This document shows, piece after piece, positions 18,401 to 64,000 of a DNA stretch of 64,000 nucleotides. Each line of letters begins with the position of its first letter. The stretch's first letter is position 1. The translations under genes and the position numbers were made by a program. The notes beneath the pieces were generated by a model, which did not search any database, was not told where the DNA came from, and worked only from the letters and a program-made list of their open reading frames with translations. This DNA comes from Owenia fusiformis (lineage: Eukaryota > Annelida > Polychaeta > Sabellida > Oweniidae), in the NCBI GenBank assembly GCA_903813345.2, contig CAIIXF020000002.1:22954455-23018454 (forward strand), written 5' to 3'.

Positions 18401-18403
18401 GTT

Positions 18404-31484: not shown

Positions 31485-31904
31485 GGTTAATAAATAGTAC
31501 ACTAAAGTTTCGTCAAATAACAATAACCCAGGCATATCTAAATGTATTATGGATACTGTGAACCAGTACGTATTGAATGCATTCTTGGTATTAAATAAAT
31601 TATGATCTTTTTAATACAAATGGCTCCGTATGACAGTTTTTATTTCAAGGATCTAAATTAATAATTCACATGATTTATACCATTTATACATGTACGTAGA
31701 TGTTTGAAAAATTCTTCCGAAATGATATTTATTTTTATTGAGAGTTTATGTAGAAAAATGATTATCAATTAGGAGTTTTAATATTCAATTAATTTCTGCA
31801 ACGTTTAGGCAAAGAGTGAGACATGTTTTATATGTCTGGTTTAGGGGACGGCAGCATGCAAAGATGTATCTCCTTGGAATGATTAACTTAATTATCTATT
31901 TCAG

Positions 31905-32024
31905 ATTTCTGGGTTAACATGCCGAGCAACACCTGCATTAAAGATCATAACGATAAAACTTTTTCCTCAGTCCCAGATAGACAGGCCTGTAGGCAGAAAT
32001 GTGAAGATGAAACAACATTCACAT
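31905..32024 (+). CDS. PAN-domain protein, exon 2: first half of PAN domain 1
   Basis: Acceptor CTATTTCAG, 120 bases, donor T|GTATGT. It codes for YFWVNMPSNTC, then SSVPDRQACRQKC and ends ..TFT plus one base. The Cys spacing (C..C...C) is the first half of a PAN/apple fold. The T left at the end plus GT from exon 3 restores the conserved Cys in front of RSIDY. Read-through past the donor meets a stop 24 codons later, at the TGA near 32093, so splicing is needed. Confidence 0.75.
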
Positions 32025-32111
32025 GTATGTCATACTATCAATTCTTCAGTAAAAATGCTCAATTTTGTAATGATACTGAATATTCAATCATTTGAAGTTA
32101 ACAAACAACTC

Positions 32112-36476: not shown

Positions 36477-36727
36477 CATCATGCTGGACCTGGAGTAACC
36501 TGGACAACACATGCATAAAAGGTCAAAACATAGCTACATTTACGACTTCTTCAATGTGTGAGTGCAAAGAGAAATGTACAAATTATGTTCCGACGACGTG
36601 TCGATCAGTTGACTATAAAGCATCAACCCAGACTTGCTATCTTCAAGCGGTATATTCCGAAACAACATTAATAAGCAGTCCTTGTTATTTACCTGGATTT
36701 GTCAATGCAGAGAGATTCCCTTGCTGA
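36477..36727 (+). CDS. PAN-domain protein, exon 4: PAN domain 2 and C-terminus
   Basis: Acceptor CATCCTTTTTAG. Two bases complete a Pro codon, then 82 codons and TGA. The peptide has CWTWSNLDNTC, MCECKEKC, CRSVDYKASTQTCYLQ and a final CYLPGFVNAERFPC. This is a second PAN/apple domain, here in one exon while domain 1 is split between exons 2 and 3. PAN domains bind proteins or carbohydrates in secreted proteins; the ligand is unknown. ATTAAA at 36803 is a possible polyadenylation signal. Confidence 0.8.
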
Positions 36728-44926: not shown

Positions 44927-46208
44927 TGCTCCTTTCTGTCGTATTAAAAAAGCAAAAATAACATATCACGGTGGGGTGCGAACCACTCGCCTGGGACTTG
45001 GTTATTCACTAGTACCATAGGCGTTCATCTATTCTGGATACAACTGACGAGTTGTATTTACGTGCAGTCAAAAGTGAAGATCATTTTGAATTGACGCTCG
45101 GTATAAATATATAATACTTTTATCCTTTCGTATCGGTTGCACGTTAGCCTCATGGCTAACGTGCCTAGCTTCCATGCTCTAGGTTAGTCGATCGAGACCC
45201 GTTCATGGCGAATTTTTTGATTTGCTTGTTGTAAAGATATAATAAGTAGGGCAAAATCCAGAAAAAGTAGATCAAAAATACTCCAATGGAGTATAAAATT
45301 GTCACCAGGATTCCGAAATGAGCCGAATGTAAACTCGTTAAATCTCGGTAGATGAAGTAGGTCAGAAAATCCGGATTAATCCGAACAAGGTTCGGGAATC
45401 TTCGTAATAAGAAGTAGATTAAAAATACTCCCAATGGAGTATAAAATTGTCCCCAATATTCCGAAATACGACGAATCGAATCGGCAAACTTCGGTAAAAT
45501 AATGAAGTGCATAAAAACCGAAATGATCCGATGAACGTTCGGATAAAATCGTGAACAGGTGTCAGGGGTTTCCCCTCATCTTTCCCCACATTGTTCTAAA
45601 AGCCTTATATGGATTTATCACGTAACATTCAAAATGACGTTCCTATATGGTTCTATGGGTTCGAACACGTGACCAAATATACCAAATAAAAATTTTACCT
45701 TGACCACTGGATGGGATTTCATAGAAAATATCCAAGAAAACCTATCCTCGTGATCCTTAAATCACTTAAATTCGATCATTTTATTTTCACCCCTTGATGG
45801 AATTTTATGAAAGAAGTCATGAAAACACATCATCATGTAAGGGTTTTCACCTAAATTAGCTCGTTTTATCTTGAGCCTTCAATTGAATTTCTTGAAGAAA
45901 TATTTTATGAAAAAATATCATCATGTTATGATTTGTATTTAAATAAGACCGTTTCATCTAAATACTTGGATAATATTTCATAAAAAATGCAAAATTTTTC
46001 AGAATTTGCCTTAATTTATCAATGTAATGAAAGTATAAGATTAACTCTCAAATAGCGTTCTATTTTAACCTTTTTATTGAAATCAATACAGGACTCGCTC
46101 TCTAAATATCCAATAAAAATTCAACCCTTGGATGTGATTTCGTTGGAAAAAAAATATGTCAAGTCCAGAATCAAATGATTTGTCCAGAACCTCTTAAGAT
46201 CCTGTTTA
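44927..46208. repeat. Right arm of the giant inverted repeat (about 1.28 kb)
   Basis: Reverse complement of 37692-39144 without the 171-bp internal duplication. It ends with AACCTCTTAAGATCCTGTTT directly before the 3' end of the minus-strand LINE. Confidence 0.85.
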
Positions 46209-46490: not shown

Positions 46491-48000
46491 TTATATTGAT
46501 AATATAGTTGTTGATCTCTTTTCAATTATTTCATAAAGGTATTTTGCAAAGGTGATACACATGTTACCCTCAGCATTAAACATATAATTAGCCTTTTCTT
46601 CGGTAGTCAATACAGTTAGATTTGGGCAAATCGAGTTAAACGTATCAAAGTATTCATATCTCATTTTTTCCAATTTTTGGCACTCAAAAATAAAATGAGT
46701 TTCCGTACCAGTGGTGATTTTACATAATTTGCATTTTCTTTGATCTCTCGGAACTATTGGTATTGTATACCTTCCTCGCTCTATTTCTAAATTGTGTGCA
46801 CTTATTCTTAATCGCGTCATAGATTTCCTATGTTCAGCGTTCTTTATTAAATTCAAATATGGTTCTTTTCCCCATCGTTGTTTGATATTATTCAAAAATT
46901 CTAATTTCCCTTTATTATCATTGACAGTTTTTTCCCAATATTTTATATATCGTTTTTCAAGGATTTTCTTAATATCAAGCGGTTTACTTTTAATGTAATT
47001 TTTATCTTGTGGTTGAACATATGCCATTATTTTATCAATGTCATAGTACCATGATGGTTGATTATGAACTTTTGATAGTTCAATACTATCTGCATGTGCA
47101 TTAATTAGTAATGAACTCGTTCCTTCATTTTCTATATGATCTAAGTATTTAACTTGTTGGTAAAATATATTGATAAACAGAGGGAATCTACCTAACTCAC
47201 CCATCGTAGCTAAATTACTCGTTTTTCTATGCACCCCTAATAGAAACTTCAAATAAGATAGATGTAGTAATTCCAGTGGAAGTGACTTGTCATATTTCAT
47301 TTCAAGGCCAAAATCTTTATTTTTCAGAAGATCTTTATTAGTTATTAGACCAGCACCCCAGATTTCACATCCATATAATAAAATTGGTTTTACTAATATG
47401 TCAAATAATTTCAGGCACAAAGTTAGGTTAATATCACCATGTGTAAGCATACTTATCAATTTGAATTTCGCCTTTTCTGCTTTTTCTTTAATAAAGATTG
47501 CAGCTTGTTTCATCGATCCGTTGGCATGGAATTCCATACCCAAATAAGTATACTTTGATACGTTTTCAATTACCTGGTCCCCAATGTAGAATATATCATT
47601 ACATCGTTTACCACTTTTATTAAACATTGCAATTTTAGTTTTATCAGTATTGATATCTAAGTTCCATTGTTTACAATAATTGTTTAATTTTTTCAATTTT
47701 ATGTCCATATCAGTTTTATTTGCAGTAATTATGGCTAAATCATCTGCAAATAGCAGGCAACTCATTTTTTGTTTTTGTAATTTTAAGTCTGATTCGAGTG
47801 TTAATTCTTCAACAACATCATTGATGTAAATATTAAACATTAATGGACTGAGTGGGTCCCCCTGTTTAACCCCCCTCTCACATTTAAAGATATCAGTATG
47901 GTCACCGTTACTGTTAATTCTAACTGATGCCATTGAATTAGTATACATGTGTTTTACCATGTGATAAAAATGACCTATATGAAATATATGCCTAAACAAT
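46491..48000 (-). pseudogene. 5'-truncated LINE: reverse transcriptase 3' half with zinc knuckle
   Basis: About 500 codons are open to a stop near 46491. Motifs in order: RGVKQGDPLSPLMFNIYIND, the active site LLFADDLAI (about residue 90), DKTKIAMFNKSGK, YTYLGMEF, KPILLYGCEIWG, and near the C-terminus CKLCKITTGTETHFIFEC (Cys-x2-Cys-x8-His-x4-Cys). Endonuclease and the first half of the RT are missing, and there is no authentic ATG at the 5' edge. The 5' junction falls within about ten bases of the stop codon of a host terminal exon (48007-48077), so it inserted in, or recombined with, that gene's 3' UTR. The motif style is of an I/L1-like group, different from the LINE at 18.4 kb. Confidence 0.8.
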
Positions 48001-48006
48001 TTATAT

Positions 48007-48077
48007 TTATCCAACAATTCCTGCGTCCTTGCGTAGCTTTTCCAAAAATTCTAGATTGTTCACTGCAAAGCTCTGGT
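48007..48077 (-). CDS. Cys-rich cluster gene 5 (subtype I), terminal exon C
   Basis: Minus strand: acceptor CATTTCCTTTTCAG, then two bases completing His, then QSFAVNNLEFLEKLRKDAG, then IVG and TAA. The paralogous exon at 56843-56913 has the same length (71 bp) and differs by only a few residues. It joins exon B 48239-48354 in phase 1. The LINE begins immediately downstream. Confidence 0.6.
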
Positions 48078-48238
48078 CTGAAAAGGAAATGCAAGATTGT
48101 TGATCGATACATGCTAAACACCAACTTATACTTTTTGGTACCTTGGCCAATTGATTTGTACAAAAACGATAGGACCTACTCAAGTCAGATGATAATGTAG
48201 CATTATATGTACAGTGCAAAGTATAGAGTTGCACTCAC

Positions 48239-48354
48239 GCAGGCAGTAACCCTTTATATGTATGTACTCATTGCAACATATAATACTCTTCTCTGGACAG
48301 ATAGGCACAGGCCCCAATCTGTATCCAATCATCTGGACATTTCTGAATCTGGAC
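48239..48354 (-). CDS. Cys-rich cluster gene 5 (subtype I), exon B
   Basis: 116 bp on the minus strand between acceptor AATATTTCCAG and consensus donor C|GTGAGT. Peptide: FRNVQMIGYRLGPVPICPEK, then SIICCNEYIHIKGYCL. The CC pair followed by a Gly-Tyr-Cys recalls the end of EMI-type domains (CCPG...G.C), but the match is loose. Starts phase 2, ends phase 1. Paralogue at 57501-57616. Confidence 0.6.
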
Positions 48355-48648
48355 CTGGAAATATTTATACGACGCATTCATAAATGACCAAAACACTTTG
48401 ATATAACTAACAAATATGTACGCACAATTGCCATATGGAAAGAACCAAAACTTGTTGCAGAATCCACCAAGATAACATCTAAATGCACCCCGGTCATATG
48501 GTATAACCCACTACAGATCGCAAAGATCTATTCGACCGAACCAAATCAGAAGTTTAAATTTTGAGTGACATTTAACGAAGCAAGTCTCGCAAGATATTTT
48601 TATGTACATGTATACAGTTTGAAAGTATCAATTGAACGTACACATATC

Positions 48649-48797
48649 CTTGCACAGTTTTATAACAACGCCGACTGCCTTTTGGACCACATCTTCGAGA
48701 CTGTTTTAGATCGGCTTTCTCAACGTAGTATTCTCCTTTGTTGTAGTAGTACTTTTGTACAGGTCGTGCTGGTTTAGGTATACAGCACATATTCTTG
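48649..48797 (-). pseudogene. Cys-rich cluster gene 5 (subtype I), exon A with mutated donor
   Basis: Minus strand, acceptor TTTTTAG. Peptide NMCCIPKPARPVQKYYYNKG, then later SRRCGPKGSRRCYKT. Against the intact paralogue 58254-58409, the donor GTATGT reads ATATGT here, and the exon tail is eight bases shorter. The next GT would shift the frame against exon B. The gene is therefore probably inactive, or uses another exon A. No signal-peptide exon was found upstream. Confidence 0.5.
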
Positions 48798-48817
48798 CTA
48801 AAAACAATTGGTATACG

Positions 48818-48999
48818 ACGTCAATGACCCTGGCATTTTGTCATTTATGCTTCAAATGTCATGAAACTTGGTCAGAATGTTCCTTGTACATTTATAAATA
48901 TAAATATGAAGTATATGGAGTTACTAGCATTTGATTGGCCGGTTTCATGGTTTCATGACGTTTGAAGCATAAATGACAAAATGCCAGGGTCATTGACGT
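48818..48999. mobile_element. Foldback MITE, 48-bp arms
   Basis: Ends ACGTCAATGACCCTGGCATT and AATGCCAGGGTCATTGACGT; the pairing runs for about 48 bp, through TCATTTATGCTTCAAA. Confidence 0.75.
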
Positions 49000-49220
49000 T
49001 ACTTCTTGGACACCCTGTAGTAAACAAGATTCTCGAAATTTTAATACCTTTCTACATAGTCTTAATTACGTGGTTTCAAAATGTTGCATACTGTGTGCCA
49101 AAAAAACATTTTCATGCTCAAAATGCCGCTCTCGTTTCAGAAGGCAAACTTTGAACGCATCGGGTGAAGTTTTTCCGACTATAGTCTCAGAGATATCTTA
49201 TATCATATGTAATGGGTCAT

Positions 49221-49548
49221 ATCTCATACTTGAGTGGGTTTGGGGTAGATATCACCCGGGAATATATATCGTATCTGAGGAGCGGGCAGGATATATTGTA
49301 TATGTCCCGCTCCAGGCCAAATGTGGGCAGATATAATATATCCATCCCGCTCCCGGGAATTTTTCAAAAGTTTAAATATCATAAGTTTTAATTTTTTAAT
49401 TTTAAAATTTAATTTTTTTAAGTTTAAATGTTACAATTTCATTGTATTGAACAAAAAGAATATTACGAAAATGTTAAATATAAATATCTTGTCATTTGAA
49501 AAAGGTGGAAAGGGTTATATCTACCCTAAATCCACTCAAGTATGAGAT
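49221..49548. mobile_element. Hairpin element ATCTCATACTTGAGTGG...CCACTCAAGTATGAGAT
   Basis: Inverted ends of about 30 bp, with an inner second inverted set around GAGCGGGCAGGATATA / TATATCCATCCCGCTC. Confidence 0.65.
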
Positions 49549-49554
49549 ACACCA

Positions 49555-49630
49555 GTTATGCACGGTCGGTTTGGATACATGGAATATCCCTCGGGATATT
49601 CCCTGTATCCAAAACCTCCCAGTGCATAAC
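49555..49630. mobile_element. Hairpin MITE (GTTATG...CATAAC family), copy 2
   Basis: GTTATGCACGGTCGGTTTGG at the left and AAACCTCCCAGTGCATAAC at the right, with GAATATCCCTCGGGATATTC in the loop. Same family as 1542-1668. Confidence 0.6.
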
Positions 49631-49920
49631 CCCTATGTATCGTCCTTGTAATCTCTCCTTTCAACTCTCTGATGCTTCTAGAGTTGTTAGTTTTGACATT
49701 ACATTGGGGGTTTGGGTTTAGCATATTTTGTCATTTTGAGTACGTTTTGTGAAATGGCCATAAAGTCGTGATAATTCGAAATAGACCAATGAAAGTTTGA
49801 TTGTACTAAATGCATCTCACTCACAAGCTGGATGGCTCAGTCATAAATGTTATTTGGTTGATTTTTAGTTAAGTTTTATCTCATAACGTTTCTCATAAAT
49901 AAATAATTAAGATGTTTTTA

Positions 49921-49997
49921 TTACTTTTTTCCAATATCGCCTCCTGATCGTCTTACTTGCTCTATCAAATCCTTGTTACTCGTCACCACGTTTTTAG
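49921..49997 (-). CDS. Cys-rich cluster gene 4 (subtype II), terminal exon C
   Basis: Minus strand: acceptor TATTTTGTTTCAG, two bases complete Ala, then KNVVTSNKDLIEQVRRSGGD, IGKK and TAA (77 bp). The paralogue at 59687-59763 has equal length and near-identical peptide. Charged, helix-like tail without Cys. Joins exon B 50543-50655 in phase 1. Confidence 0.65.
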
Positions 49998-50542
49998 CTG
50001 AAACAAAATATTCCGCGTTTAGGTTTGGACATAAGTAAAGACTGATAAGGCAGTTTGAGAAGCGCTGGTGGAACTGGAGGGGAAGGGGGCATTAAACCCA
50101 CCCTTCTAGGATGGGCTCCAAAAAGGTATGTAGGGCCTCAATTGGTGGCGCTTTTTAAGCATAACTTGGCCTTTTTGGGTCCTATTTTCTAATTTTTAGT
50201 CAAATCTCCGGGAGGTTTGATTTTTTCTAGTTCGTTTTTTTGTGAACGCGAAAGTATATGGTTTTTCCCATCATTCTAAGAAATATTTCCCCCAAAAGGT
50301 GAGAGGACACCCCAGGAATCAAAATCACACGTTGGAGTGGGCATCAACATATCAACAATAATATTTCATTTTTGCATAGTTTTGCCTTGGTAATGTTTGT
50401 ATCATGGCTACAGCCTTGATGTGCATCGCTTCAGATTTAAATGTTCGTGGACAAACTAATTAGGATCAAATGATAGCACGGTATCTCTCCAAATGTAAGT
50501 ATTATAAACATAGTAGGTGATTGAACTACTTAGTTACTATAC

Positions 50543-50655
50543 CTATGCAATTTCCATGCACTTTTGCGAATCCATTACAACAAGTGACCTGGTTAGAAGG
50601 ACATGTTCTATATTCAGTCCTGTACATTTTTTTCTGGCGGTACAATGTTACCCTT
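50543..50655 (-). CDS. Cys-rich cluster gene 4 (subtype II), exon B
   Basis: 113 bp on the minus strand, acceptor GTTTTTTTCCAG, donor G|GTATAG. Peptide TLYRQKKMYRTEYRTCPSNQ, then VTCCNGFAKVHGNCI. The YR repeats before the CC pair and the G.C ending are EMI-like. It receives exon A in phase 2 and passes to exon C in phase 1. Paralogue at 61188-61300. Confidence 0.65.
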
Positions 50656-50815
50656 CTGGAAAAAAACTTTTGAAATGTTGATATCATTCAGAAAATACAA
50701 ATGGAGTCACGCAAAACACAATGTGACGAATATACATAAATATGATAAATATGTGCTTGTACATCTCTACGTGATATATTTGATAATTATGAAATAGTAT
50801 TTCGTTCAGTTGTAC

Positions 50816-50975
50816 CTAGTTCGTTGCCCTGATCTGTAACATCTCGCTGATCCCTTTGGGCCACATCTTCTTGATACCCTGCCCATATATGATTGTTGCT
50901 GATAATATGACTCAGATACATAATATGGGACTTGTCTGGGTGAAACATCCACTTTGCAGCATTTGTTTTCTTCCT
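50816..50975 (-). CDS. Cys-rich cluster gene 4 (subtype II), exon A copy 1
   Basis: 160 bp, acceptor TTTCTAG (an alternative AG two bases on would give phase 0), donor AG|GTACAA. Peptide NKCCKVDVSPRQVPYYVSES, YYQQQSYMGR, then SRRCGPKGSARCYRSGQRTR. The exon ends in phase 2, as required by exon B. It is the nearest of several tandem copies and the most likely one to be used. Confidence 0.6.
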
Positions 50976-51111
50976 CTAGAAATACACATACACTTTGTCA
51001 AGTACAAAATTTAATGTATCAATTTTTTGTTTGGCATAAACTTTTAGAATGGATATCAAGATTACTAAGTGTAATTTGATAATTATGAAAGAGTATTTCG
51101 TCAAGTTGTAC

Positions 51112-51271
51112 CTAGTTCGTTGCTCTGAGTTGTAACATCTCCGTGATCCCTTTGGGCCACATCTTCTTGATATACTACCCATGTATGATTGTTGCTGATA
51201 ATATGACTCAGATACATAATATGGGACTTGTCTGGGTGAAACATCCACTTTGCAGCATTTGTTTTCTTCCT
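51112..51271 (-). CDS. Cys-rich cluster gene 4 (subtype II), exon A copy 2
   Basis: 160 bp with the same splice boundaries and phases as 50816-50975. It differs mainly in the second half (SRRCGPKGSRRCYNSEQRTR). It would splice to the same exon B. Two intact, in-phase alternatives raise the possibility of alternative or mutually exclusive use; including both would break the single-domain layout. Confidence 0.5.
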
Positions 51272-51310
51272 CTAGAAATACAAATGCACTTTTTTTATTT
51301 TTTTATTTTC

Positions 51311-51421
51311 ATCTCGTAAATGCCACGCCCATGTATGATTGTTGCTGGTAATATGACTCAGATACATAATATGGGACTTGTCTGGGTGACACATCCACTT
51401 TGCAGCATTTGTTTTCTTCCT
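51311..51421 (-). pseudogene. Truncated exon A copy 3 (subtype II)
   Basis: Keeps the acceptor and the 5' half (through QQQSYMG) but continues GVAFTR and then a TGA where the CGPKGS block should be. The break joins an A-rich stretch that leads into the next copy. 150-bp repeat unit with copy 4. Confidence 0.6.
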
Positions 51422-51460
51422 CTAGAAATACAAATGCACTTTTTTTATTTTTTTATTTTC

Positions 51461-51571
51461 ATCTCGTAAATGCCACGCCCATATATGATTGTTGCTGATA
51501 ATATGACTCAGATACATAATATGGGACTTGTCTTGGTGACACATCCACTTTGCAGCATTTGTTTTCTTCCT
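51461..51571 (-). pseudogene. Truncated exon A copy 4 (subtype II)
   Basis: Near-identical to copy 3 at a 150-bp offset, with the same break point after GVAFTR. A frame-breaking duplication has been copied. Confidence 0.6.
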
Positions 51572-51761
51572 CTAGAAATACACATACAATTTATCAAGTA
51601 CAAGATTTAATGTATCAATCTTTGTTTGGCATAAACTTTTAGAATGGATGTCAAGATTACTAGGCGTAACTTATATAAAATATATCCTTGCTACTTCGCA
51701 GTTCAAACATGAAAAAAGATCGTGCAAACATCACCCCCCCCCCCCACCCTAGCATGTGTGT

Positions 51762-51838
51762 TTAAAGTTGATTATCACCCGGCAACTCCACCATCAATAA
51801 TTGCATATAGAATTTCCTAGTCCCGGGTGTTTCTTCAT
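51762..51838 (-). CDS. Candidate terminal exon C of gene 3 (subtype III)
   Basis: After GCACAG at 51839 the minus strand gives two bases completing Asn. Then follow EETPGTRKFYMQLLMVELPG, DNQL and TAA, 77 bp in all. That is the same length and phase as the subtype II terminal exons, although the peptide is not similar. The pyrimidine tract before the acceptor is poor, so the call is weak. Confidence 0.25.
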
Positions 51839-51910
51839 CTGTGCATTATTTCCAGTTCCACAAATGCGTATGATAAAAGATTTAACAGTAATAGGTATTA
51901 GTAAACTAAC

Positions 51911-52023
51911 TTGTACAATAGCCTTTCAAATTGTAGTAGCCTGGACAGCAAATTTTCTTATTCTGCGGACAAGGACGGGGTGCCATTCTATAGGCCAACT
52001 TCTGTCTGTATACGGGTGCGTTT
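51911..52023 (-). CDS. Cys-rich cluster gene 3 (subtype III), exon B
   Basis: 113 bp on the minus strand, acceptor GATTATTACAG, donor A|GTTAGT. Peptide NAPVYRQKLAYRMAPRP, then CPQNKKICCPGYYNLKGYCT. CCPGYYNLKGYC is the closest match in the cluster to the CCPG(Y/W)xG..C end of an EMI domain. Length, entry phase 2 and exit phase 1 equal those of subtype II exon B. The plus-strand frame over the same bases is a shadow. Confidence 0.6.
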
Positions 52024-52559
52024 CTGTAATAATCCAAATGAAAGCTTTTTTAAATAAATATCAGCAAATATGCTCAATCATTTATACTTGTACATATGAT
52101 TCTAGGGTCAGAGAGATGCTGTCAATATTTTATCATTCTGATGCCCATAGCATCTCTCTCTCTCTGTTTCATCGCAGATCTCTCCAGAAGGATAGAGATG
52201 GAGAAGGCGTGGCTAACAACGATGATATTTGATGATTCGAAGAAGTCAGTCCTTCTATTCAATCGAACGCTATTGGTAGAACATACACATGCACACACAT
52301 GCAACAAAACATTCTATCAAAATCAATTTAATTCTATGAATTCGTCTTATAGCGTGTGACGTGCACGAGACTACAGCCAGGGAGAGGAATAGTTGTTGGT
52401 GAATCATAACTCGCCCTCGCACCGCCTTGTGTTAGAAATTTCGATGTTTTTTGTACTGCTTTCAACACACTCACGGGATTGACGAATTTAGCAAATAATG
52501 AAATTGCCCCTTTACGAAAATATAAACAATTTATAGGCATTTAGCATAATTCAAACTAT

Positions 52560-53540
52560 AAATGTCCCTTAGTTTTTACGTTACCTTTATAGAGTTGCCT
52601 TCTTGGTAAATATCTGATTTCCTTTTGGTCCACGTTTTCGATTTTGCATATTTTTGTCCTTTTGGTAAACATAGTAGCAAACATTTTGAGTTTAGGCCAC
52701 ATTAATATAATCTGTATCATCAGCTTGTTACCTGTATTGTGTCGCATGGGAGGTACATCTCCGAGTTCCTTTTGGTCCACATCTTCGATATTGCGTAACT
52801 TTGTCCTTTTGGTAAACATACAAGTAAACATTTTGAATTTAGGCCACATTAACATTATCTGTATAATCAGCCTGTTACCTGTATTGTGTCGCATGGGAGC
52901 TACATCTCCGACTTCCTTTTGTTCCACATCTTCGATATTGCGTAACTATGTCCATTTGGTAAACAAACTAGTAAACATTTTGAATTTAGGCCACATTAAC
53001 ATTATCTGTATAATCAGCCTGTTACCTGTATTGTGTCGCATGGGAGGTACATCTCCGACTTCCTTTTGGTCCACATCTTCGATATTGCGTAACTTTGTCC
53101 TTTTGGTAAACATACAAGTAAACATTTTGAATTTAGGCCACATTAACATTATCTGTATAATCAGCCTGTTACCTGTATTGTGTCGCATGGGAGCTACATT
53201 TCCGACTTCCCTTTGGTCCACATCTTCGATATTGCATATTTTTGTCCTTTTGGTAAACATAGTCGTAAACATTTTGAGTTTAGGCCACATTAACATAATC
53301 TGTATAATCAACTTGTTACCTGTATTGTGTCGCATGGGAGGTACATCTCCGACTTCCTTTTGGTCCACATCTTCGATATTGCGTAACTTTGTCCTTTTGG
53401 TAAACATACAAGTAAACATTTTGAATTTAGGCCACATTAACATTATCTGTATAATCAGCCTGTTACCTGTATTGTGTCGCATGGGAGGTACATCTCCGAC
53501 TTCCTTTCGGTCCACATCTTCGATATTGCGTAACTTGTGC
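52560..53540 (-). repeat. 147-bp tandem array made from the 3' half of exon A plus its splice donor
   Basis: The word GCATGGGAG recurs at 52744, 52891, 53038, 53185, 53332 and 53479, exactly 147 bp apart, and a degenerate seventh unit lies near 52597. On the minus strand each unit carries TQYRRCGPKGSRRCTSHATQ, then YR, ending at CAG|GTAACA, that is, the end of exon A with an intact donor. No strong acceptor precedes the units. The repeat is a multiple of three, so long frames stay open on both strands (349 and 268 codons); I regard these as artefacts. Confidence 0.85.
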
Positions 53541-53625
53541 AGAAACTTGTCTTTGTCCGGATACCTCTGTAGTATAAAACGATTCTTTCTTTGGAGTGTC
53601 GTCAATGGAACAACAAACGTGTTTT
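53467..53625 (-). CDS. Cys-rich cluster gene 3 (subtype III), exon A (array founder)
   Basis: 159 bp, acceptor TTTTTCTGATTTTAG, donor AG|GTAACA. Peptide KHVCCSIDDTPKKESFYTTE, VSGQRQVSAQV, then TQYRRCGPKGSRRCTSHATQ, YR. It has the full exon-A layout (CC pair, then RCGPKGSRRC) and phases, and it is the only complete unit next to the 147-bp array. It probably joins exon B at 51911-52023 across the array. Confidence 0.6.
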
Positions 53626-53901
53626 CTAAAATCAGAAAAATAGACAAAACTGACGCAGTGTGGATGACACAACCACAAGTACATCTCATATAATGGCAAA
53701 AAATAAACATACTTCGAAAGTTTGGTTTTAATGTATAAAATAAAAGTAACAATTATCTCTTTAACGAGTTAAATAATCATATATTTTGTAACTTGCATCT
53801 CAGAACAGGTTTTGACACGGCCAATGGAGTCGTTCGTTATGCATTATATATTTTATTTCAAATGAATAAAAACATTAACCAAAAATTAAAATAATTGTTT
53901 A

Positions 53902-53955
53902 TTACGATGCTGGATTGAGGGGGTCGAAATAGCTTGCTACATCATCCCCTCTGGC
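53902..53955 (-). CDS. Candidate terminal exon with RGD motif
   Basis: Minus strand: strong acceptor TTTTATTCCAG, then in phase 0 ARGDDVASYFDPLNPAS and TAA, with AATAAA overlapping the stop and another AATAAA about 45 bases on. Only phase 0 is open, and it fits directly to the signal-peptide exon at 54884-54937, giving a 35-residue secreted peptide precursor. RGD is an integrin-binding motif in many proteins; whether it acts so here is unknown. Confidence 0.35.
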   Translation of the reverse strand, partial: ARGDDVASYFDPLNPAS

Positions 53956-54229
53956 CTGGAATAAAATTAAAACGAATAGTTATGAACAACTGTATTCAAA
54001 CTTAACTATATGTTAAAGGCCGAGTTCCGGGAAATATTAACACAATTGAACATCTTAAACAACTAATATACATACTTTTTGTGGCTTGGTTGAATGGCTA
54101 TTAATCCCAAGTTCCGATGTGCCTCATCAAGAAGACGATAGAGTGACAAAGATTATGTCAAGCGGGGTTTATAATTTTTGTGCAAATTTTCTTCTTGGAT
54201 CGAAAAATTTAATTTTAATTCGATTAACT

Positions 54230-54440
54230 TACGATAGGTGGCAAAAGGTCTAAAGGTAGGTCACGTGACACAAAACAACGAATCATATGACACGAAACAA
54301 TGATTCATTCGCCAGATGGCGCAGTTAAATGAGGTCAATTTTACGACAAACGAAAACCGTTTAGCTCAGCTTCAATTTTGCTCTCGCAGTCGAACGAAAC
54401 TGACACTTCTTTCGTTGATATCTAGGTGAGTGATTTTTTT
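54230..54440 (+). other. Possible promoter and 5' non-coding exon on the plus strand
   Basis: GC content rises locally, and ..TTGATATCTAG|GTGAGTG at 54425 is a consensus donor after a CTCGCAGTCGAACGAAACTG-type stretch. There is no following coding exon that I can identify. Listed as a faint possibility. Confidence 0.12.
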
Positions 54441-54883
54441 CAGGCTCCGGTATTTTGACAAAAGTAAGTTCACGTCGTAGCCATTCTTAGGGGCAGGTTT
54501 GAGGCACCAACGATTTATTTTGAAGATTTTCTAAGGAATTATTCCCGATTTCCAGTATTGTCCCTTTAATTTCCTTTATAATTGTTATAATTTTTGTTTG
54601 TACATGTACTTGACTCCAAGGGGTGTGAATGTACTTGAAGAATAAAAAATATATGTTTATTTCATAGATGTCATGCAAAAGCAGTAGTGCACATTCGAAC
54701 AAAAAAAACGAATCGTTATAAACAACTCGTTTTCAAGCTTACCTTATTTCATAGATGAGCTATTAACAGCTGTACAGATTTGAACTAAAAACGAATCTTT
54801 CTTACAACTTCTTTAATTATTATACAATGCCATTCTTATCTGATCGTACTAAATGTTTCTTCATCAAAAAGTACCGTTATTAC

Positions 54884-54937
54884 CTCAGTATGCGGCCATG
54901 AGACGATGACTGCTACAACTAAAAACAAACCATTCAT
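54884..54937 (-). CDS. Candidate signal-peptide exon
   Basis: Minus strand ATG followed by NGLFLVVAVIVSWPHTE and the donor GAG|GTAATA in phase 0. A short hydrophobic leader fits a secreted protein. Partners in phase: the RGD exon 53902-53955 directly. Alternatively it could serve as leader for a subtype II exon A if the alternative phase-0 acceptor is used. It cannot join the subtype III exon A in phase. Confidence 0.35.
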
Positions 54938-55284
54938 CCTGTTGAGTGTGAGTGAACTTAGTTATTGTTATACACAGACTTGGGTATCTTATATCTATCT
55001 TATATTGATGTATAAATGTAGATAATATTATCAGTCATATGTTATGGACAGAACCAACTGTGGAAAGCCGTGTATGTTCCCATACAACTGGTGAACTTGT
55101 TCCGATTGCGGGGCGTAGCCATGATTCCAGATAAGGGAAGGCAAAATGAACTGGACGAGTGAAATTGAACAGAGTTGAACAGAGTTCAATTTAAGACTCC
55201 GGACAGAATGTACCTAAATCTCGATCTCGACCTTTGATCTTCAAAATTTCAAATTGTCATTTTTTCATCGTTAATCGTTTTAAC

Positions 55285-55620
55285 CTGCTATTGGTTGGTT
55301 GGTTGGTTGGTTGGTTGTTGGTTGGTTGATTGGTTGGTTTGATATTTTTCTGTTCGTTGGTTGGTTGTCTGGCTGGTTAGATGGTTGGTTTGTTGCTTCC
55401 TTGCTTGGTTTGACGGACGCTTGGTTTGCTGCTTGGTTGGTTTATTGGCTTCTTGCTTGGCTGTTTGTTTTGTTGCTTGGTTGGTTGGTTACTTTCTCGG
55501 TTGCTTGGTTTTGTGATTGATTGGCCATTTGCTTAGTTGCATGTACGAATGTTTGTTTGTTTGCTTGGTAGGTGGATGGGGTTGGCTGCTTGCTCGGTTG
55601 CTTGCTAACTTGAATGATAA
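55285..55620 (+). repeat. Degenerate (GGTT)n low-complexity tract
   Basis: TTGGTTGGTTGGTTGG opens a long GGTT/GCTT-rich stretch. The frame through it is only Trp/Leu/Gly-rich and not coding. Confidence 0.85.
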
Positions 55621-56306
55621 CATCTTATGTAAACTATACAGATAAAAGAAAATTAATTTTACAGTATGATGGTAAAGATATTTCATTTGCAACTTGGCCT
55701 AAAGTAGATGCAAAGTCCCTAATTGTTTATTGGACATGATTACACATAGCTCAAGTAATCTGTACACAGGGTTAAAATGATGCAAAGCCTCAAAAATGCA
55801 CGTTCCTTGGACACACATGAGTAGAGTGCGCACTACACTCATTTGATCCGTGTTACTCAAGTATTGTCCAGAAAAATTGTCTGGCTCTTAAGAATTTTCC
55901 CCGGGGGTTTAATTAAAAAAAAATAGTATTTAACTTTTTCTTAAATATAGTTTTCTAGGATTCTTACGGGCAAAAAGTGATATTAAAACTTCAAAAACCA
56001 TATGCTTGTCTGGTTTTTCTAAATATGAGGCCCATCATGAAGTGCCAGTATTTGACAAAAGAGGGCGTGGCACTTCCTCATTTCGCTTAGGAAACGGACA
56101 CAGTTCCCAAAGAAACGAAAATCGAAGACAGTACACAGCTTTATGCATGAAACGCATGAAATGCATGAAAAGTGTTCGATCCTTATGCGAATAATATAAT
56201 ATAAAAATTTGAGAAATAGCAAATATATTTTTTTGTAAAACCGATACTAATCTCCATAGATCATAGAATATCAGTATTTTATTCTTTATATTAATATATA
56301 GAGGAT
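55621..56306. other. Intergenic, nothing recognised
   Basis: Short unsupported frames only. Confidence 0.4.
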
Positions 56307-56439
56307 ATCCTATGATTTATGTGTGATATGATTTTTATCCACGAATGGATATGATATCTGCACGAGCGAGCGTAGCGAGAGAGTGCAGGTATCAATACCC
56401 ATGAGTGGATTAAATCATATCACGAGTAAATCATAGGAT
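56307..56439. mobile_element. Hairpin MITE ATCCTATGATTTA...TAAATCATAGGAT
   Basis: 133 bp with inverted ends and an inner CACGAGCGAGCGTAGCGAGA GC-rich loop; ATATGATTT.. and AAATCATAT extend the stem. Confidence 0.65.
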
Positions 56440-56842
56440 GTTCTTTTTATTCCATAGTTAAAGTCATCATCAGAATCGTCGGAAATTAAGTTATTTAATT
56501 CGAATTTCCAAACGATCTGGCGATGTTGACACTTAGCCTCGTTTTGAGTCTGCAGTAGCAAAAATCCATAAACCATCGCATACGACGTCGTATGTCATGG
56601 CTAAAATACCGTATGTTATGGTTAAGTGAAAATTTGTCAAAAATATCATATTTTACCACTGATTACAAAAATACCGTTTTTATTTTCACATGTTATCCTA
56701 TGAATATCATGCTAACTATGGAATAGTATATGCATGTGTATATTTAAAAAACTCCTTGAATAAAATAAGACACAAACACATATGTATAAAGATACGTATA
56801 TTTTTCCTTTATAACATATCCATACAAGTACAAACAATTCAT

Positions 56843-56913
56843 TTATCCAACAATTCCAGCGTCCTTGCGCAGTTTTTCCAACAATTCCAGGTTGTTTACT
56901 GCAAAACTCTGGT
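56843..56913 (-). CDS. Cys-rich cluster gene 2 (subtype I), terminal exon C
   Basis: Minus strand acceptor TCTTTTTCTTTCTAG; two bases complete His, then QSFAVNNLELLEKLRKDAG, IVG and TAA. Intact and nearly the same as 48007-48077. Confidence 0.65.
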
Positions 56914-57500
56914 CTAGAAAGAAAAAGAAAAATTGACCGTTGTCGGGTTTAGACCAACATATTGTTTGTAGTACGTTAAAAACCGATTGAAAGAAAAATT
57001 GAAATGTTTCTGCAGGAGAGTCTTGGTTTTTCTGTTTAAAATAAGAAGTTACTGAACCAAGCACTGGCTTCTGCTGTGTAAAGGTCTCCTCACAAATAGG
57101 CGAATCCATTAAACGCAGCCTAATGAATTGAGTCTTGTAAATTCTGTCTATTGATAACGCAAATATGCAAAACGATGGGCAGTTTTAATTTGCGCATGCT
57201 TTCGAAGCCATCTGAGTGTACCCTCACAATTGACCAAATTTTGGAGTTTATCTCATGTTTATTTATTTTTTAATTTTATTTTTACAGATAATACCGACTT
57301 GGGCAAGGCAACGAATGTGCAATTATATAGTCAGAGGTTCGATTGACAAACTAAATTTCTATTGTAAATTGAAACTTAATAGTTACCACGACCACGACCG
57401 AAATAATTATTTGAAACGATATCTCAATCAGTGGAACATATATGACTTCAATACGAAATTACTATGTGTGTTAATAAACATGTACAGTAGTTGTACTCAC

Positions 57501-57616
57501 GCAGACAGTAACCCTTTATATGTATGTACTCATTGCAACATATGATATTCTTCTCTGGACAGATAGGCACAGGCCCCAATCTGTATCCAATCATCTGGAT
57601 ATTTCTGAATTTGGAC
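57501..57616 (-). CDS. Cys-rich cluster gene 2 (subtype I), exon B
   Basis: 116 bp, acceptor AATACCTTCAG, donor C|GTGAGT. Peptide KFRNIQMIGYRLGPVPICPE, then KNIICCNEYIHIKGYCL. Only three or so residues differ from the copy at 48239-48354. Enters in phase 2 and exits in phase 1. Confidence 0.65.
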
Positions 57617-58253
57617 CTGAAGGTATTTATACAACATTTATGAATGGCCAAAACACCTGCATACATATCAGGGGTATATATAATTGGGGTATATATTATG
57701 AAAACAGGAAAAAATCTGAGTTCTTTTTCTGAAAAATCGAAGAAAATTGCTATAAAAAATCGGGGTTTCTAAACATTCAGCACACAGCGAGAAAAAGAAA
57801 ACATCTAAGAGTACACCAGTAACTATAAGGACAACAAACCCCAATTATCCCCAGATTATAATCTAACGGGAAACGATATCTATTATCATCCACGGCTTTT
57901 AATGTACCAACATCAAAATCCAAGACTATTACACCAAGTGACATTTCCCATTAAAATACATGTTGAAGAATAAATTTAAATTGATAACAATGCTCATAGA
58001 GCAAAAATAGTTGCAGATACTAACTATTTTGAAAGCCCAGACAAAATCCAGTCTCGAAGTCCATAAGCGTTTCAAAGGGACTTCCCATAGTGAGAGATGT
58101 CTTTCAGCTAGACTTTCAAAACATATTGGAAAATCGTTTTGTTTTGAGGTAATTAAGATAACAATGTCCAAATGTTATGTAAATTGAATAAACCACTGAC
58201 CAATCAAGGTATTTTAAAATTGTAAAATAAATGGAGGTTGAACGTATACATAC

Positions 58254-58409
58254 CTGTATCCCGGCTCCGATCTATAACAACGCTCACTGCCTTTTGGGCC
58301 ACATCGTGTTGTCTGTAGAAGGTTGACTTTCTGAACGAAGTATTCTCCTTTGTTGTAGTAGTACTTTTGTACAGGACGTGTGGGTTTAGGTATACAGCAC
58401 ATGTTCTTG
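58254..58409 (-). CDS. Cys-rich cluster gene 2 (subtype I), exon A
   Basis: 156 bp, acceptor GCTTTTTAG, consensus donor AG|GTATGT. Peptide NMCCIPKPTRPVQKYYYNKG, EYFVQKVNLLQTT, then RCGPKGSERCYRSEPGYR. It joins exon B in phase 2, so gene 2 gives an uninterrupted A-B-C frame of about 110 residues with eight cysteines. A leader exon must lie upstream (to the right) but was not identified. This is the best intact subtype I gene. Confidence 0.65.
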
Positions 58410-58641
58410 CTAAAAAGCATTCGCAAACAAAATGTATGCTCAAAAGCCAAAGGAAGTGGACCAGAAATTATAACAGACTTAAAGGACAACTGAAATAGCT
58501 TTTCTCAACTTGCAGCTACAAAAATGCGGTTTTCTACATTGTAAGCCCAACGTAGAGTTCTTGCGATAGCCATTATAAAATAAATGTTAGATAACTGCTA
58601 ACGGTCATAAATAACGAAATAAAACTAACTGATCAATCAAA

Positions 58642-58817
58642 TTGGCCCCCACGTGATAAGTAACGTCATATACAAAATATAGCTTTGGTTTCTTGGTTCC
58701 TTAGTAATCACAACGTCACGGCAACCATAGGATTGTAGTGTAAACCAAAACAAAACATTTTGGCATTATGACGTTATGGGCCACGTGGGGACCAGTGAGA
58801 GATCACGTGGGGGCCAA
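58642..58817. mobile_element. MITE TTGGCCCCCACGTG...CACGTGGGGGCCAA
   Basis: 14-bp perfect inverted ends. Inside, a second GGGCCACGTGGGGACC copy lies near 58778. Confidence 0.7.
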
Positions 58818-59686
58818 TAACGTCACAACCAATTCGAATATTGCTTATTAAGCAGCTATAACGATCGTTAGAGTGAAATAATTTTTACAATACTGATGAG
58901 AAAACATGTCCAAATACATTTATCAAAAAATTATATTGATTCCTGTAGGTTAAAAATACCATTTCATATCTGCTTTAACAGCAAGAAAAAACATCTAAGT
59001 CATAAAGAAAGTAACTCTAACTTACTCGAGTCTCTGGCCAATTTACTTGGCTAGAAGTCATGGTATGTGGACCACCGTGCAGTAATGAAAAAGTTCATCC
59101 TTGAGAAAAATTAATTTAAATGTTATCTTAAAAATCGTAATGAGAATATTTCATCAATTAGAAACGAATCGTTCAGGTTTCGTCTAAAATTAAAATCATA
59201 GGGTCTGCCATTTTTTAAAACAGTTCCAACATGAAAGTAGAACATCACATGTATTTACAAGGAATAAATAAATACATAATATATACATGTATATATTAAA
59301 AGCTTAAATGTGAAATAGTTGGTCAGTTTAAATAATATCATTGACTCACTGTAAGTTGGTAATATAGTCTTATATGATATGTGACATCACGATAGCTGAG
59401 CAATTGATTAACTGGACTATATTGGAATTCATAACTGCAAATAGTTGTGTTTCTCGTCTGTTTATCATATTAGAATTGTAACAAAGACCCCGATTTTATG
59501 ATTTATGTCAAATATATGACCTCATATTTTATTCTGGCTTTGCAAAAGACCTCAATTGCTACGCGATTTTGGTCTTTTAACAATGAACAGAATAAAAATT
59601 TCGGTCGTATATTACGCCATAAGTCTTTATTCCTTAAGTAAAGAATTGTAGTAGTGTGCTAAAAATAAATCCATGATATACAATGA
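58818..59686. other. Intergenic between cluster genes 1 and 2
   Basis: No leader exon for gene 2 could be supported. One consensus donor, CGA|GTAAGTT, lies on the minus strand at about 59024, but the frame before it has no hydrophobic leader. Confidence 0.4.
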
Positions 59687-59763
59687 TTACTTTTTTCCAA
59701 GGTCGCCTCCTGATCTTTTTACTTGCTCTATCAATTCCTTGTTAGTCATCACCACATTTTTAT
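59687..59763 (-). CDS. Cys-rich cluster gene 1 (subtype II), terminal exon C
   Basis: Minus strand acceptor GTTCTGTTTCAG; two bases complete Asp, then KNVVMTNKELIEQVKRSGGD, LGKK and TAA (77 bp). Intact paralogue of 49921-49997. Confidence 0.65.
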
Positions 59764-60669
59764 CTGAAACAGAACATACAGTTTAGCTTTGTACAAGTAA
59801 ACACAAGCAAGGGAGATTGAGTCTTGAGTCGTGGCAGTCTTTCCCAGATTTACTCTATTTGTTCAGTTTGTAGTTGTATATCTTCAAAACTGTATGGCCT
59901 TCTTAGCAACACAACATTATGGACCCCTCTGGACCAAAGTATTGTTTTATATTATTCTTTCCGTCGATTTTTAACGCGTCAAAAACTATTCAAAACTTTA
60001 ACTCAAGAAGACAACATGTAAATTACGTGTCGGGTAGCAACCGATCGAATCGATGCATGACCACTGCAATATATATATATCTACATTACGAATGTTACCT
60101 GTGAGCGATCACATCGCAAAGTGTGCATTTAAAGAAAAGACAAAATTCAAAGTATTACCGTTTTTTACATTCCAAACGGACAATGTTTCTTTGAGAATAT
60201 TATATGAAGAACACTTCATAAAAATATTTAAACCCAAATTGAACTATAAATAAATAAAAGTAACCATAACAACAAGGTAAATATATAATTGAATATGAAT
60301 TATATTTGATTTACTACGTAACTATGGTATCTACTATGTATTTTTATTATAATGCGAATTAATGTAATTAAATGTCGTAATTGAATAATTGATCTACTTA
60401 TTACGTAATACATTCGCATGTTTATCCATTTCCAATGGAGATCAAAGGTATAACGTCATAATGTGCGATTTAAATGATAATCAGTTACCTGAAGAATAAA
60501 AGTGAAACCGGTAGTGACTGAATTACTTCTTCTGTTATTTTCTGTTTTTATAATCAATTTTTATATATATATATATATACATGTCACATTTTCATCTATA
60601 CATGTCACTTTTGCTGTGTTAAAGATATGACCGTACTTGGTGTAGATGGCCCACCATACAAGTTCAGTG

Positions 60670-60976
60670 CAACGAAGATTGGTTCCCAGAATCGAGGTCG
60701 ATATTTTCTTATAATGAAAACGCCGAAATGTCGTTATTTTCTGAAATTTTTACCGATAATAAACAGTTCAAAATAAACAGTTCAAATGATTCGAACCAAT
60801 ATCTCGATCATTTCTTGTGATTTATAGAATTTTTCGTCAGGAAATAAGACCAAAATTCACGATTCAAATGTTGAAGTGAACAAAATGGCGGCTGTTGGAA
60901 TTCGAATTTTGTAGAACGACATCCCCATATATGGGACAGAATATCGATGTTGCACTCTGAGAGCCAATCCTCCTTG
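60670..60976. mobile_element. Mutator-type MITE, copy 2, in the B-C intron of gene 1
   Basis: Starts CAACGAAGATTGGTTCCCAG and ends GAGCCAATCCTCCTTG. It is flanked by the 9-bp direct repeat AGTTCAGTG (60661-60669 and 60977-60985). Reverse-complement copy of 187-491. The intron here is 1.42 kb against 0.55 kb in gene 4. Confidence 0.8.
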
Positions 60977-61187
60977 AGTTCAGTGCCTTCAAAGTGACGA
61001 CCAAAATCATGTATCAACAAGTATACTTAAGAAGACTATACCTTGTTGTATGTATCCTGACTAAACCTATGGTAAATAACATATTCGAATGTTTCTAAAC
61101 AAAACAACCAGGACCAATTATCTCTATGATCAAAATCAAAATTATTTTAAAATAAACATAATAGGAATAGGTGAGTGTTTACTATAC

Positions 61188-61300
61188 CTATGCAATTGCC
61201 ATGTACTGCTTCGAACCCGTTACAACAAGTGACCTTGTTAGGAGGACACGTTCTGTATTCAGTCCTGTACATTGTTTTCTGGCGGTACAATGTCACCTTT
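61188..61300 (-). CDS. Cys-rich cluster gene 1 (subtype II), exon B
   Basis: 113 bp, acceptor TTTTTTTGTAG, donor G|GTATAG. Peptide TLYRQKTMYRTEYRTCPPNK, then VTCCNGFEAVHGNCI. Joins 59687-59763 in phase 1. The plus-strand frames over this exon are shadows. Confidence 0.65.
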
Positions 61301-61601
61301 CTACAAAAAAACTATCGGTACTGTATTTTGAAACAATCAGAAAACGGGGAATCACGAAATTATACAGCTAGGTGTAACCTGGAAAGCCTAATAAAATACA
61401 ATGAGACATTATGAAATTGCTACTATAATTTCACTTTTATCTAAATGTAAAAAATACATACACGTCGTGGAAGCAAAATGTTGCATTTGTCCCTCTCGTA
61501 ATTTATCGTTAAATGTACATCACACCTCGATATTTTGCCATGGTTGAATATGTGCTTTCAAATACTTCATACTCTATTCTAAAGAAATGATCAAAAACCT
61601 A

Positions 61602-62241
61602 CAGGGTGTCCCGAAAGTATGGCCCCCCTAAGCAGACATATACCAGTGTCGTCATAGTATGTGTCATACATTGTATATCATTTTAAAGCTTATCCAAAGT
61701 TACATTGATTCGCCAAGTATCATGGTTCAACTCTCAAATGTGAAAAAATTACAGGCATTTCAAAAGTTAGTGTTTGATCAAAATTAAGTTCAATTTTACA
61801 CCAAATCAATAGTCAATATGTCCTCCCAGGCCATTTTAACAGCAGCGATTATTTTCGGGTCGGATGGATATTGAGTTGGAAAAAGAGAACAGTGAGGGTA
61901 GAAACTCTAAGCAAACTCTTCTAAAGTTCCTTAGCAGGTTTTAAGAGGGTTATAAAGTTGCACACCCCTATTTGAAGGGCTTTTAAGGTATATCTGAAAT
62001 TAATTGCTGCTGTTAACATGGCCAAGGGTTGACTCGTGATGTGGTGTAAAATTGAACTTTATTTTGACAAAACACTAACTTTTAAAATGACTGTAACTTT
62101 TTCCCATTTGGGAGTTAAAGCATGATACTTGGCAAATCAATGTAACTTTGGGTAAGCTTTAAAATGATATATGACACATACTATGAGGACACTGGAATAT
62201 GTCTACCTGGGGGGGGGGGGGCATACTTTCGGGACACCCTG
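61602..62241. mobile_element. TA-flanked foldback element, ~240-bp arms
   Basis: Both ends read CAGGGTGTCCCGAAAGTATG.. and are flanked by TA. The arms (61602-61855 and about 62000-62241) pair throughout, for example GCCAAGTATCATGGTTCAAC against a diverged complement. A G tract lies at 62208. No transposase. Confidence 0.75.
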
Positions 62242-62335
62242 TATATCCACAAATCACGTGCAATTTTTAATTCTTCATCATTTTATAGGAAAGCGTAATA
62301 ATATTTTTTAAATCATGAAATACATTTCGTTGTAC

Positions 62336-62434
62336 CTAGTTTTCTGCTTTTGTGTGTAACATGTCATTGAACCCCTTGGGCCACATCTTGTAAATCCCAC
62401 GCCCATGTATGATTGTTGCTGGTAATATGACTCA
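62336..62434 (-). pseudogene. Truncated exon A of cluster gene 1 (subtype II)
   Basis: Keeps the donor AG|GTACAA and the 3' part: ESYYQQQSYMGVGFTRCGPRGSMTC in two pieces, then YTQKQKTR. Similarity to 50816-50975 stops at about 62434, removing the CC half and the acceptor. Gene 1 therefore lacks a complete exon A in this window and may be dead, unless another exon A lies beyond. Confidence 0.5.
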
Positions 62435-64000
62435 CACTTGGTAAAAAAGTTAAAATAATATAGAATAAAATGTTTAATATACTGCTAAATAATAGAAAAT
62501 CGTAGAGAATATTTTTTCCTGTATAATAGGCAGTTATTTCTTTTATTATAACGGAAAAAAATATAATACGTATTTTTAAGAATTATTTTTGCTTTAATAA
62601 TATTATTCGTGTATTATTTAAAGGGAACAACATATAATGCCAAATAATATAGAATAATATTCCTGTCAGGAGCAAATAATATGTTGGCATTTGCAATCAA
62701 AAACCTATTATACGCGGTTATTTTCGAGCCGTTAATCCCTAATTATTCAATTCCTATGAAATGAGTTTCATTCATACTGATAATTAATCTGTTTGTTAGG
62801 GTTAATGGATTAATCTCTACGGCTGATGGCTCTTAATTCCACAAAAATAATTTGCAAAATAAGTTTTTACATACATATTTGATTGTATAATGTCCCTCAT
62901 GTTATGATTAACATTGTGTTAAATTTTTGATTCAATCAATTAATTCATCATAAAGTTAATTTTAAATTTTTATTTAATTTGTTTTCCTCACATTTTTAAT
63001 CCATTGTTTCTCTGTCACATTAAGTTTATAGCAAACAACATTTAAATCGATCCCCTCTTACACAGGTACAAACAACCACCTGTATTCACTTTGCCAACCG
63101 GAAAAACAGTCATGACAGGGAAGTGCTCAATATTCAATAAACACATTACACATTTTATACAGACCCGTAGCTAAGGACCCCCATTCCCGTGGCCAACAAT
63201 TCTGTCAAAATCATGTAGTTGTTCACCATTCACATACATGTATTGACATTCCAGAGCAATACAATAAGTCAAACTTTAATCCCTTATTATTCAATTTCCA
63301 CGATTTGAGTTTTGTTCACACTGATAAATAATCTGTTTGTTTGAGTTAATGGATTAATTTCCACAGCTAATGGTTCTAATTTCAACTAAAAAATAAATTG
63401 CAAATTAAGTTTTTCGTATTTATTTGATTGTATAATGTCCCTTATGTTATGATTAACATTGTGTTAAAATTTGGATTTAATTGATTGACTCAACGGAAAG
63501 TTAATTTTTAATCAACGGGTTTCCTCACATTTTTACTCTATTGGGTTTCCTCACAATTTAACTCGACTGTTTTTCTGTCAAATTAAGTTTACAACAAACA
63601 ACACTTTATTAAAGCCCCTCTTACACAGACACAAACACCATTAATCACTTCACAAACAACACAAAACATTTATGACACGAAACTGCTATATATCAATACA
63701 TTACGAATTTGGTATAGGTCCATGGCCAGGGAGGGGGGGGGGGGCGTTTGGTTCAAGTAAATCCCCCCCCCCCCCCTTGCCAAAATTCTTTCAAAATCCT
63801 ACATTTTTTTTACCAATCTGAGCACTGTTACGTGATTTCGGGCCAAAATGATCAATTGTGACCCCTTGGTTTGTTTTGAAAATTGATCCCCTGGTCTAAA
63901 ACTTATTCAGAGCCTGTATTATATTGGATGTACATGTATTGCTCCGATTTCTTCTGGCAAATCGCTGATAATAAATAAGAAAGGTACATTAGGTTAACTG
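62435..64000. other. Right end: tandem duplication and G/C-tract MITE pieces
   Basis: Segments 62730-63090 and 63270-63640 are diverged direct copies (TTTGATTGTATAATGTCCCT, TTATGATTAACATTGTGTTA, then TTACACAG.). MITE ends with G and C tracts lie near 63170 and 63715-63780. No gene seen. Confidence 0.55.

Follow-up and report, generated by a model that had tools for sequence, protein, structure and literature searches.

Tandem EMI-like exon sets in the annelid Owenia fusiformis, possible modules of a secreted protein

Introduction

The locus described here raises the question of which domain is encoded by a series of short cysteine-rich exons repeated in tandem, and whether these exons represent several small genes or modules of a larger one. 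It lies in a stretch of 64,000 nucleotides of the Owenia fusiformis genome (GenBank assembly GCA_903813345.2, contig CAIIXF020000002.1, positions 22,954,455 to 23,018,454, forward strand), the whole of which is called the window. The minus strand carries five pairs of exons, A and B, from 62.4 down to 48.0 kb, and these follow one another as II, I, III, II, I (sets II1, I1, III, II2 and I2). These tandem sets are real protein-coding exons, now or until recently, and the A+B peptide of about 88 residues is probably, as judged from profile comparisons, a divergent EMI domain. With somewhat less than even confidence, III, II2 and I2 are considered modules of one secreted multi-EMI gene, and II1-I1 part of a second, damaged copy.

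Tandem exon sets and their conservation

Hidden Markov models (HMMs) were built from the A, B and C exons and run over the six-frame open reading frames (ORFs, at least 15 residues) of the window. Five loci were recovered with the exon-B HMM (E 2.1e-21 or better; next match 0.19), four with the exon-C HMM (E 9.4e-14 or better; next about 1) and 13 with the exon-A HMM, counting extra and partial copies, plus one decayed copy (E 0.017). All the A+B pairs of the five minus-strand sets described in the first-pass annotation were found, in the same order and at the coordinates given there; the additional copies of exon A in III and II2 had not been noted in it. The exons and their copies are the following:

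62336..62436, minus strand: II1 exon A, 5' truncated, without the CC pair (exon HMM)
61188..61300, minus strand: II1 exon B (exon HMM, EMI profile)
59687..59763, minus strand: II1 exon C, ending in TAA as terminal exon or, as internal linker, at 59691 with donor AAA/GTAATC
58254..58409, minus strand: I1 exon A (exon HMM)
57501..57616, minus strand: I1 exon B (exon HMM)
56843..56913, minus strand: I1 exon C, terminal, GIVG stop (exon HMM)
53467..53625, minus strand: III exon A, first half of the EMI-like domain (exon HMM)
52580..53466, minus strand: tandem 147-bp repeat with five partial III exon-A copies and a decayed one
51911..52023, minus strand: III exon B, second half of the EMI-like domain, ending in phase 1 (exon HMM, EMI profile)
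51762..51838, minus strand: III exon C of the first-pass annotation, unsupported as an exon (no C-HMM match, poor acceptor)
51312..51571, minus strand: II2, two shortened II exon-A copies ending in stops (exon HMM)
51112..51271, minus strand: II2 exon A, full copy A3 (exon HMM)
50816..50975, minus strand: II2 exon A, full copy A4, not usable in frame together with A3 (exon HMM)
50543..50655, minus strand: II2 exon B, the best EMI-profile match of the window (exon HMM, EMI profile)
49921..49997, minus strand: II2 exon C, ending in TAA as terminal exon or, as internal linker, at 49925 with donor AAA/GTAATA
48642..48797, minus strand: I2 exon A (exon HMM)
48239..48354, minus strand: I2 exon B (exon HMM)
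48007..48077, minus strand: I2 exon C, terminal, GIVG stop (exon HMM)

A fixed A-B-C formula had been proposed for all five sets, and it describes four of them. The A-B junction is in phase 2 in every set, as had been stated, and the B-C junction is in phase 1 in the four sets with a credible exon C. Set III departs from the formula because its proposed exon C is not recognized by the C HMM (no match at 51838-51762), lacks homology to the other C exons and is preceded by an acceptor with 5/17 pyrimidines, compared with 9-16/17 for 15 listed exons; this exon was consequently rejected. The RCGPKGSxRC core and the eight cysteines are likewise present in four of the five sets; II1 carries RCGPRGSMTC and seven cysteines, one of them new, and its exon A, which begins inside the domain, has 101 bp instead of the 156-160 bp with a CC pair that had been assigned to every exon A. 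Subtype I peptides share 30-40% identity with those of III and II. Homology also links the C exons of I and II, each of the four being open as far as a stop. A shifted donor (GT/GTACGT) is required for I2 exon A.

A comparison by blastn (plus/plus, E 1e-3) of the segment 64.0-56.0 kb with 56.0-47.9 kb yielded nine matches, all of which cover these exons and flanks of at most about 60 nt; none is wholly intronic, and the remaining intron does not align. Chance exon-like ORFs were ruled out by these exon-confined matches together with the loci detected by the HMMs, and the duplication of a II+I block suggested earlier holds. Between I1 and I2 there are 20.5 synonymous changes per 70.3 sites and 21.5 nonsynonymous changes per 268.7 sites (dN/dS 0.23, Fisher p 2e-5), and this pair is under purifying selection. 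The II1/II2 comparisons are more relaxed (dN/dS 0.43 and 0.48), with II1/II2b still below neutral (Fisher p 0.024).

These values bear on the possibility, held at less than even confidence and compatible with a multi-EMI gene, that some of the cluster, above all II1 and the additional copies of exon A, consists of pseudogenes in decay. Decay is suggested by the truncated II1 exon A, the stops in the shortened II copies, the relaxed dN/dS of II1/II2 and the copies of III exon A. The five extra partial III copies carry donors and are spaced 147 bp apart; constraint on them was rejected because their divergence (0.052) is close to that of the adjacent stretch of intron (0.0625), and their differences fall, in our reading and with the frame offset allowed for, mostly outside third codon positions. 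On the other hand, all B exons and four C exons remain open, and the dN/dS of I1/I2 and the below-neutral value of II1/II2b speak against general decay.

The two full exon-A copies of II2, A3 and A4, differ by 2 synonymous and 7 nonsynonymous changes. Since II exon A is entered in phase 1 and left in phase 2, both copies can never be used together in frame, and to judge from their sequence they would be either alternatives or one of them dead. In the A-B intron of II1 there is also an inverted repeat with 143-nt arms (61674-61816 and 62029-62171, 90% complementary), probably a mobile element.

Relationship of the A+B domain to EMI

The relationship of these peptides to EMI is supported by several profile comparisons. 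The Pfam EMI model (PF07546) matches the III peptide along profile positions 2-68 of 69 with E 0.055 and 14.7 bits, the cut-off being 25; the corresponding single-model E value is about 2e-6 (0.055/24736), a figure allowed because EMI had been named beforehand in the first-pass annotation. An EMI profile was also prepared from the sequences of seven vertebrate EMI domains, all of them recognized by Pfam as EMI with E 5.4e-14 or better. Among 2930 ORFs of the window, its top three matches were exon B of II2, II1 and III (independent E values 6.6e-5, 7.1e-5 and 1.8e-4), followed by a match at 0.034. When 2000 full and 2000 cysteine-fixed shuffles of each peptide were scored on this profile, the scores of III and II1 were reached by none of either kind, and those of II2a and II2b by 0/2000 full and 1/2000 cysteine-fixed shuffles. 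Similarity to EMI beyond composition and cysteine spacing is thus found in four of the six peptides, those of the II and III sets. As read from the sequence, six cysteines of A+B match those of EMI, two more are added, and the CC ending is present.

Other results weigh against this assignment. The curated EMI cut-off was not reached by any of the six peptides, III giving the best and sole relevant match. The I1 score was reached by 217 full and 188 cysteine-fixed shuffles out of 2000, and that of I2 by 1013 and 645, so that subtype I would be EMI-like only through its kinship with III and II. Both hhalign against EMI (79.6%, E 1.5e-5, one comparison) and BLASTP of III against a MEGF10 sequence (E 7e-6, one comparison) covered the C-terminal half alone. 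Two typed consensus peptides submitted to Pfam gave no EMI match and E 0.94, both worse than III, and the joined chain gave no EMI match in Pfam.

It could be argued from these results, and from the eight cysteines instead of six, that A+B is a distinct cysteine-rich domain that shares with EMI a CC-x-G-Y ending. We consider this unlikely, because the Pfam match of III is near full length and the shuffle and window-wide tests favour EMI for II and III. The resemblance to EMI, raised and half dismissed in the first-pass annotation, has therefore become the best lead, and the profile search proposed there gave a near-full-length, sub-threshold match for III. As regards the domain, the accompanying statement that no named family has the RCGPKGS core is probably mistaken, given the EMI profile evidence; in the literature collection searched, the letters RCGPKG occur in a single paper, which concerns syndecan-4/MLP.

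Two other Pfam matches, Ependymin for II2a (residues 47-78, E 0.075, below cut-off) and DUF604 for a typed consensus (E 0.11), were taken as chance. No match was found in a PDB sequence search or in Rfam at the gathering threshold, and none of 101 pattern matches in viral contigs was confirmed. The tail encoded by exon C is not clearly amphipathic, its observed moment being reached by 1705, 1694, 293 and 434 of 5000 shuffles.

Joining of the exons

No exon A contains a start codon and an acceptor precedes each of them, so something upstream must be spliced on. Two candidate exons, both hypothetical, are located upstream of III:

54884..54937, minus strand: candidate signal-peptide exon MNGLFLVVAVIVSWPHTE, donor GAG/GTAATA, phase 0
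53906..53955, minus strand: candidate linker exon ARGDDVASYFDPLNPA plus 2 nt, donor ATC/GTAATA in phase 2, overlapping an in-frame TAA

Of the 8 signal-like frames above 47.8 kb, the MNGLFLVVAVIVSWPHTE frame, a textbook example, has the highest hydrophobicity; it sits in the gap before III. The acceptor of the linker exon has 13/17 pyrimidines. Phases are compatible from the linker exon to III exon A (2-2), from III exon B to II exon A (1-1) and from II exon C to I exon A (2-2). A GTAAT donor that leaves phase 2 and overlaps the stop is kept in exon C of both II1 and II2, where it fits the consensus at 6 of 9 positions (5 to 8 in the eleven donors of exons A and B); exon C of I, the last in each block, has no GTAAT donor at its stop. 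Under the scan criteria, the gaps that precede II2 and I2 are devoid of signal-like frames with a donor. The phase fit, the kept donor of II exon C, the lack of an exon C in III, the closeness of III to II2 and this absence favour one gene, signal peptide-III-II-I, and a partial copy II1-I1.

The minus-strand gene would then consist of a signal exon (54.9 kb), a linker exon (53.95 kb), EMI-III, EMI-II, linker C-II, EMI-I and the terminal C-I (48.0 kb), and II1-I1 (62.4-56.8 kb) would represent the 3' portion of a second copy, damaged in its first EMI exon. Each A+B pair would encode a single extracellular domain of divergent EMI type, rich in disulfides, with about 88 residues and eight cysteines, and exon C would supply a tail or linker of 22-24 residues. 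In the resulting protein, three EMI-type domains (III-II-I) would follow one another in tandem, each with one additional pair of cysteines, exon A having been copied in tandem and A3 and A4 being possibly mutually exclusive, an architecture that we put forward tentatively and at less than even confidence. Splicing of the sets into one mRNA, secretion and function are inferred.

Several observations count against such a chain. Agreement of three phases is expected by chance at 1/27, the donor of the linker exon is weak, with 5 of 9 consensus positions, and both exon C of II and the linker exon can be read as ending in TAA. An AATAAA signal occurs 56 nt past the II1 stop and another at the II2 stop, on a background of 2.86 per kb (AATAAA/ATTAAA). 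Signal-like frames with donors readily arise by chance, the two strands of the 64 kb having 32 and 36 of them, and a weak one before II1 (63669) would fit II1 exon A in phase 0. The signal-exon scans do not settle gene boundaries.

The sets may instead be separate small secreted EMI-like genes, tandemly duplicated, each A-B-C with its own undetected signal exon; this is a serious possibility, held at less than even confidence and nearly as likely as the single gene. It would account for the homologous C exons of I and II, all open to a stop, and for the AATAAA past II1; in addition, II1 has a weak signal-like frame nearby (63669) and another precedes I1 (59288). Nevertheless, the frame at 59288 is in the wrong phase and II2 and I2 have none, III has no credible exon C, and only about 190 bp separate its supposed stop from the first II2 exon-A copy. 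The original proposal, in which five small secreted genes would each end in a stop of their own, is thus doubtful, and the splice phases fit one chain III-II-I.

Alternative splicing of one signal exon to III, II2 or I2 cassettes, each with its own stop, agrees with their common orientation, with the single good signal-like exon nearby and with the resemblance of A3 and A4 to alternative exons. It is very improbable, because II exon A needs phase 1 and III and I exon A need phase 2, leaving no common donor for all three.

Other features of the window

A LINE-type reverse transcriptase frame (46494-48050, minus strand; RVT_1 E 7.3e-21) lies directly downstream of I2 exon C, and another, with endonuclease, is found at 18347-20977 on the plus strand (RVT_1 E 8.2e-38). 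Exons of a PAN-domain gene are present on the plus strand at 36434-36724 (PAN_1 E 3.1e-7, above cut-off) and 31892-32092 (E 0.0021, below cut-off). Reverse transcriptases with endonuclease and PAN-domain exons are in keeping with an animal genome. A 163-residue open frame without Pfam match (11759-12250, plus strand) ends in CAIL, which we take to be CaaX-like. An interspersed repeat with the same frame (GETPDTCSRFYPNVHRII...), also without Pfam match, occurs at 38325-38663 (plus strand) and 45165-45575 (minus strand).

Comparison with EMI and Nimrod proteins

The A+B domain shares with the EMI domain (PF07546) of MEGF10/PEAR1, NimA/Draper and EMILIN/Multimerin the pattern C...C-x7-C...CC-x-G-Y/F...C and a YR-rich middle, and differs from it in the score below the Pfam cut-off, the eight cysteines and the tandem arrangement. 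The CCxGY motif described for the Nimrod superfamily in PMC4073527 has a counterpart in CC[NP][GE][YF], located towards the end of exon B. Unlike EMI proteins, this locus showed no EGF-like, gC1q or transmembrane part. Three regular expressions for EGF-like repeats gave 0 matches in the 2930 ORFs of the window, a coarse search not aimed at the NIM repeat; on this result, a MEGF/Draper-type gene with EGF repeats in the window was rejected. The C exons of I end in a stop.

In PMC11949838, EMI is described as consistently singular and N-terminal, which weighs against the multi-EMI gene, and as having three disulfide bonds; a role in protein-protein interaction and multimerization is proposed there for the EMILIN/Multimerin group. 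Literature searches for tandem-EMI proteins found no counter-example to the single EMI in the collection covered. According to PMC13076899, the EMI domain of NimA promotes cell adhesion and is dispensable for NimA multimerization, and adhesion through EMI is reported for PEAR1. By analogy with EMI proteins, a secreted multi-EMI product would most simply be a matrix or adhesion linker; the protein proposed here would act in the matrix or in cell adhesion, its EMI modules binding partners.

If the sets are separate genes, they represent small secreted EMI-like genes specific to the lineage, a finding of modest interest. If they form one gene, domain annotation would miss such split, sub-threshold EMI modules, and EMI could serve as a module repeated in tandem, as EGF repeats and TSRs do. 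In contrast to known EMI proteins with their single, N-terminal EMI, this locus holds several modules, whose joining is hypothetical; a multi-EMI chain, if true, would be a new variant with respect to the published single-EMI statement.

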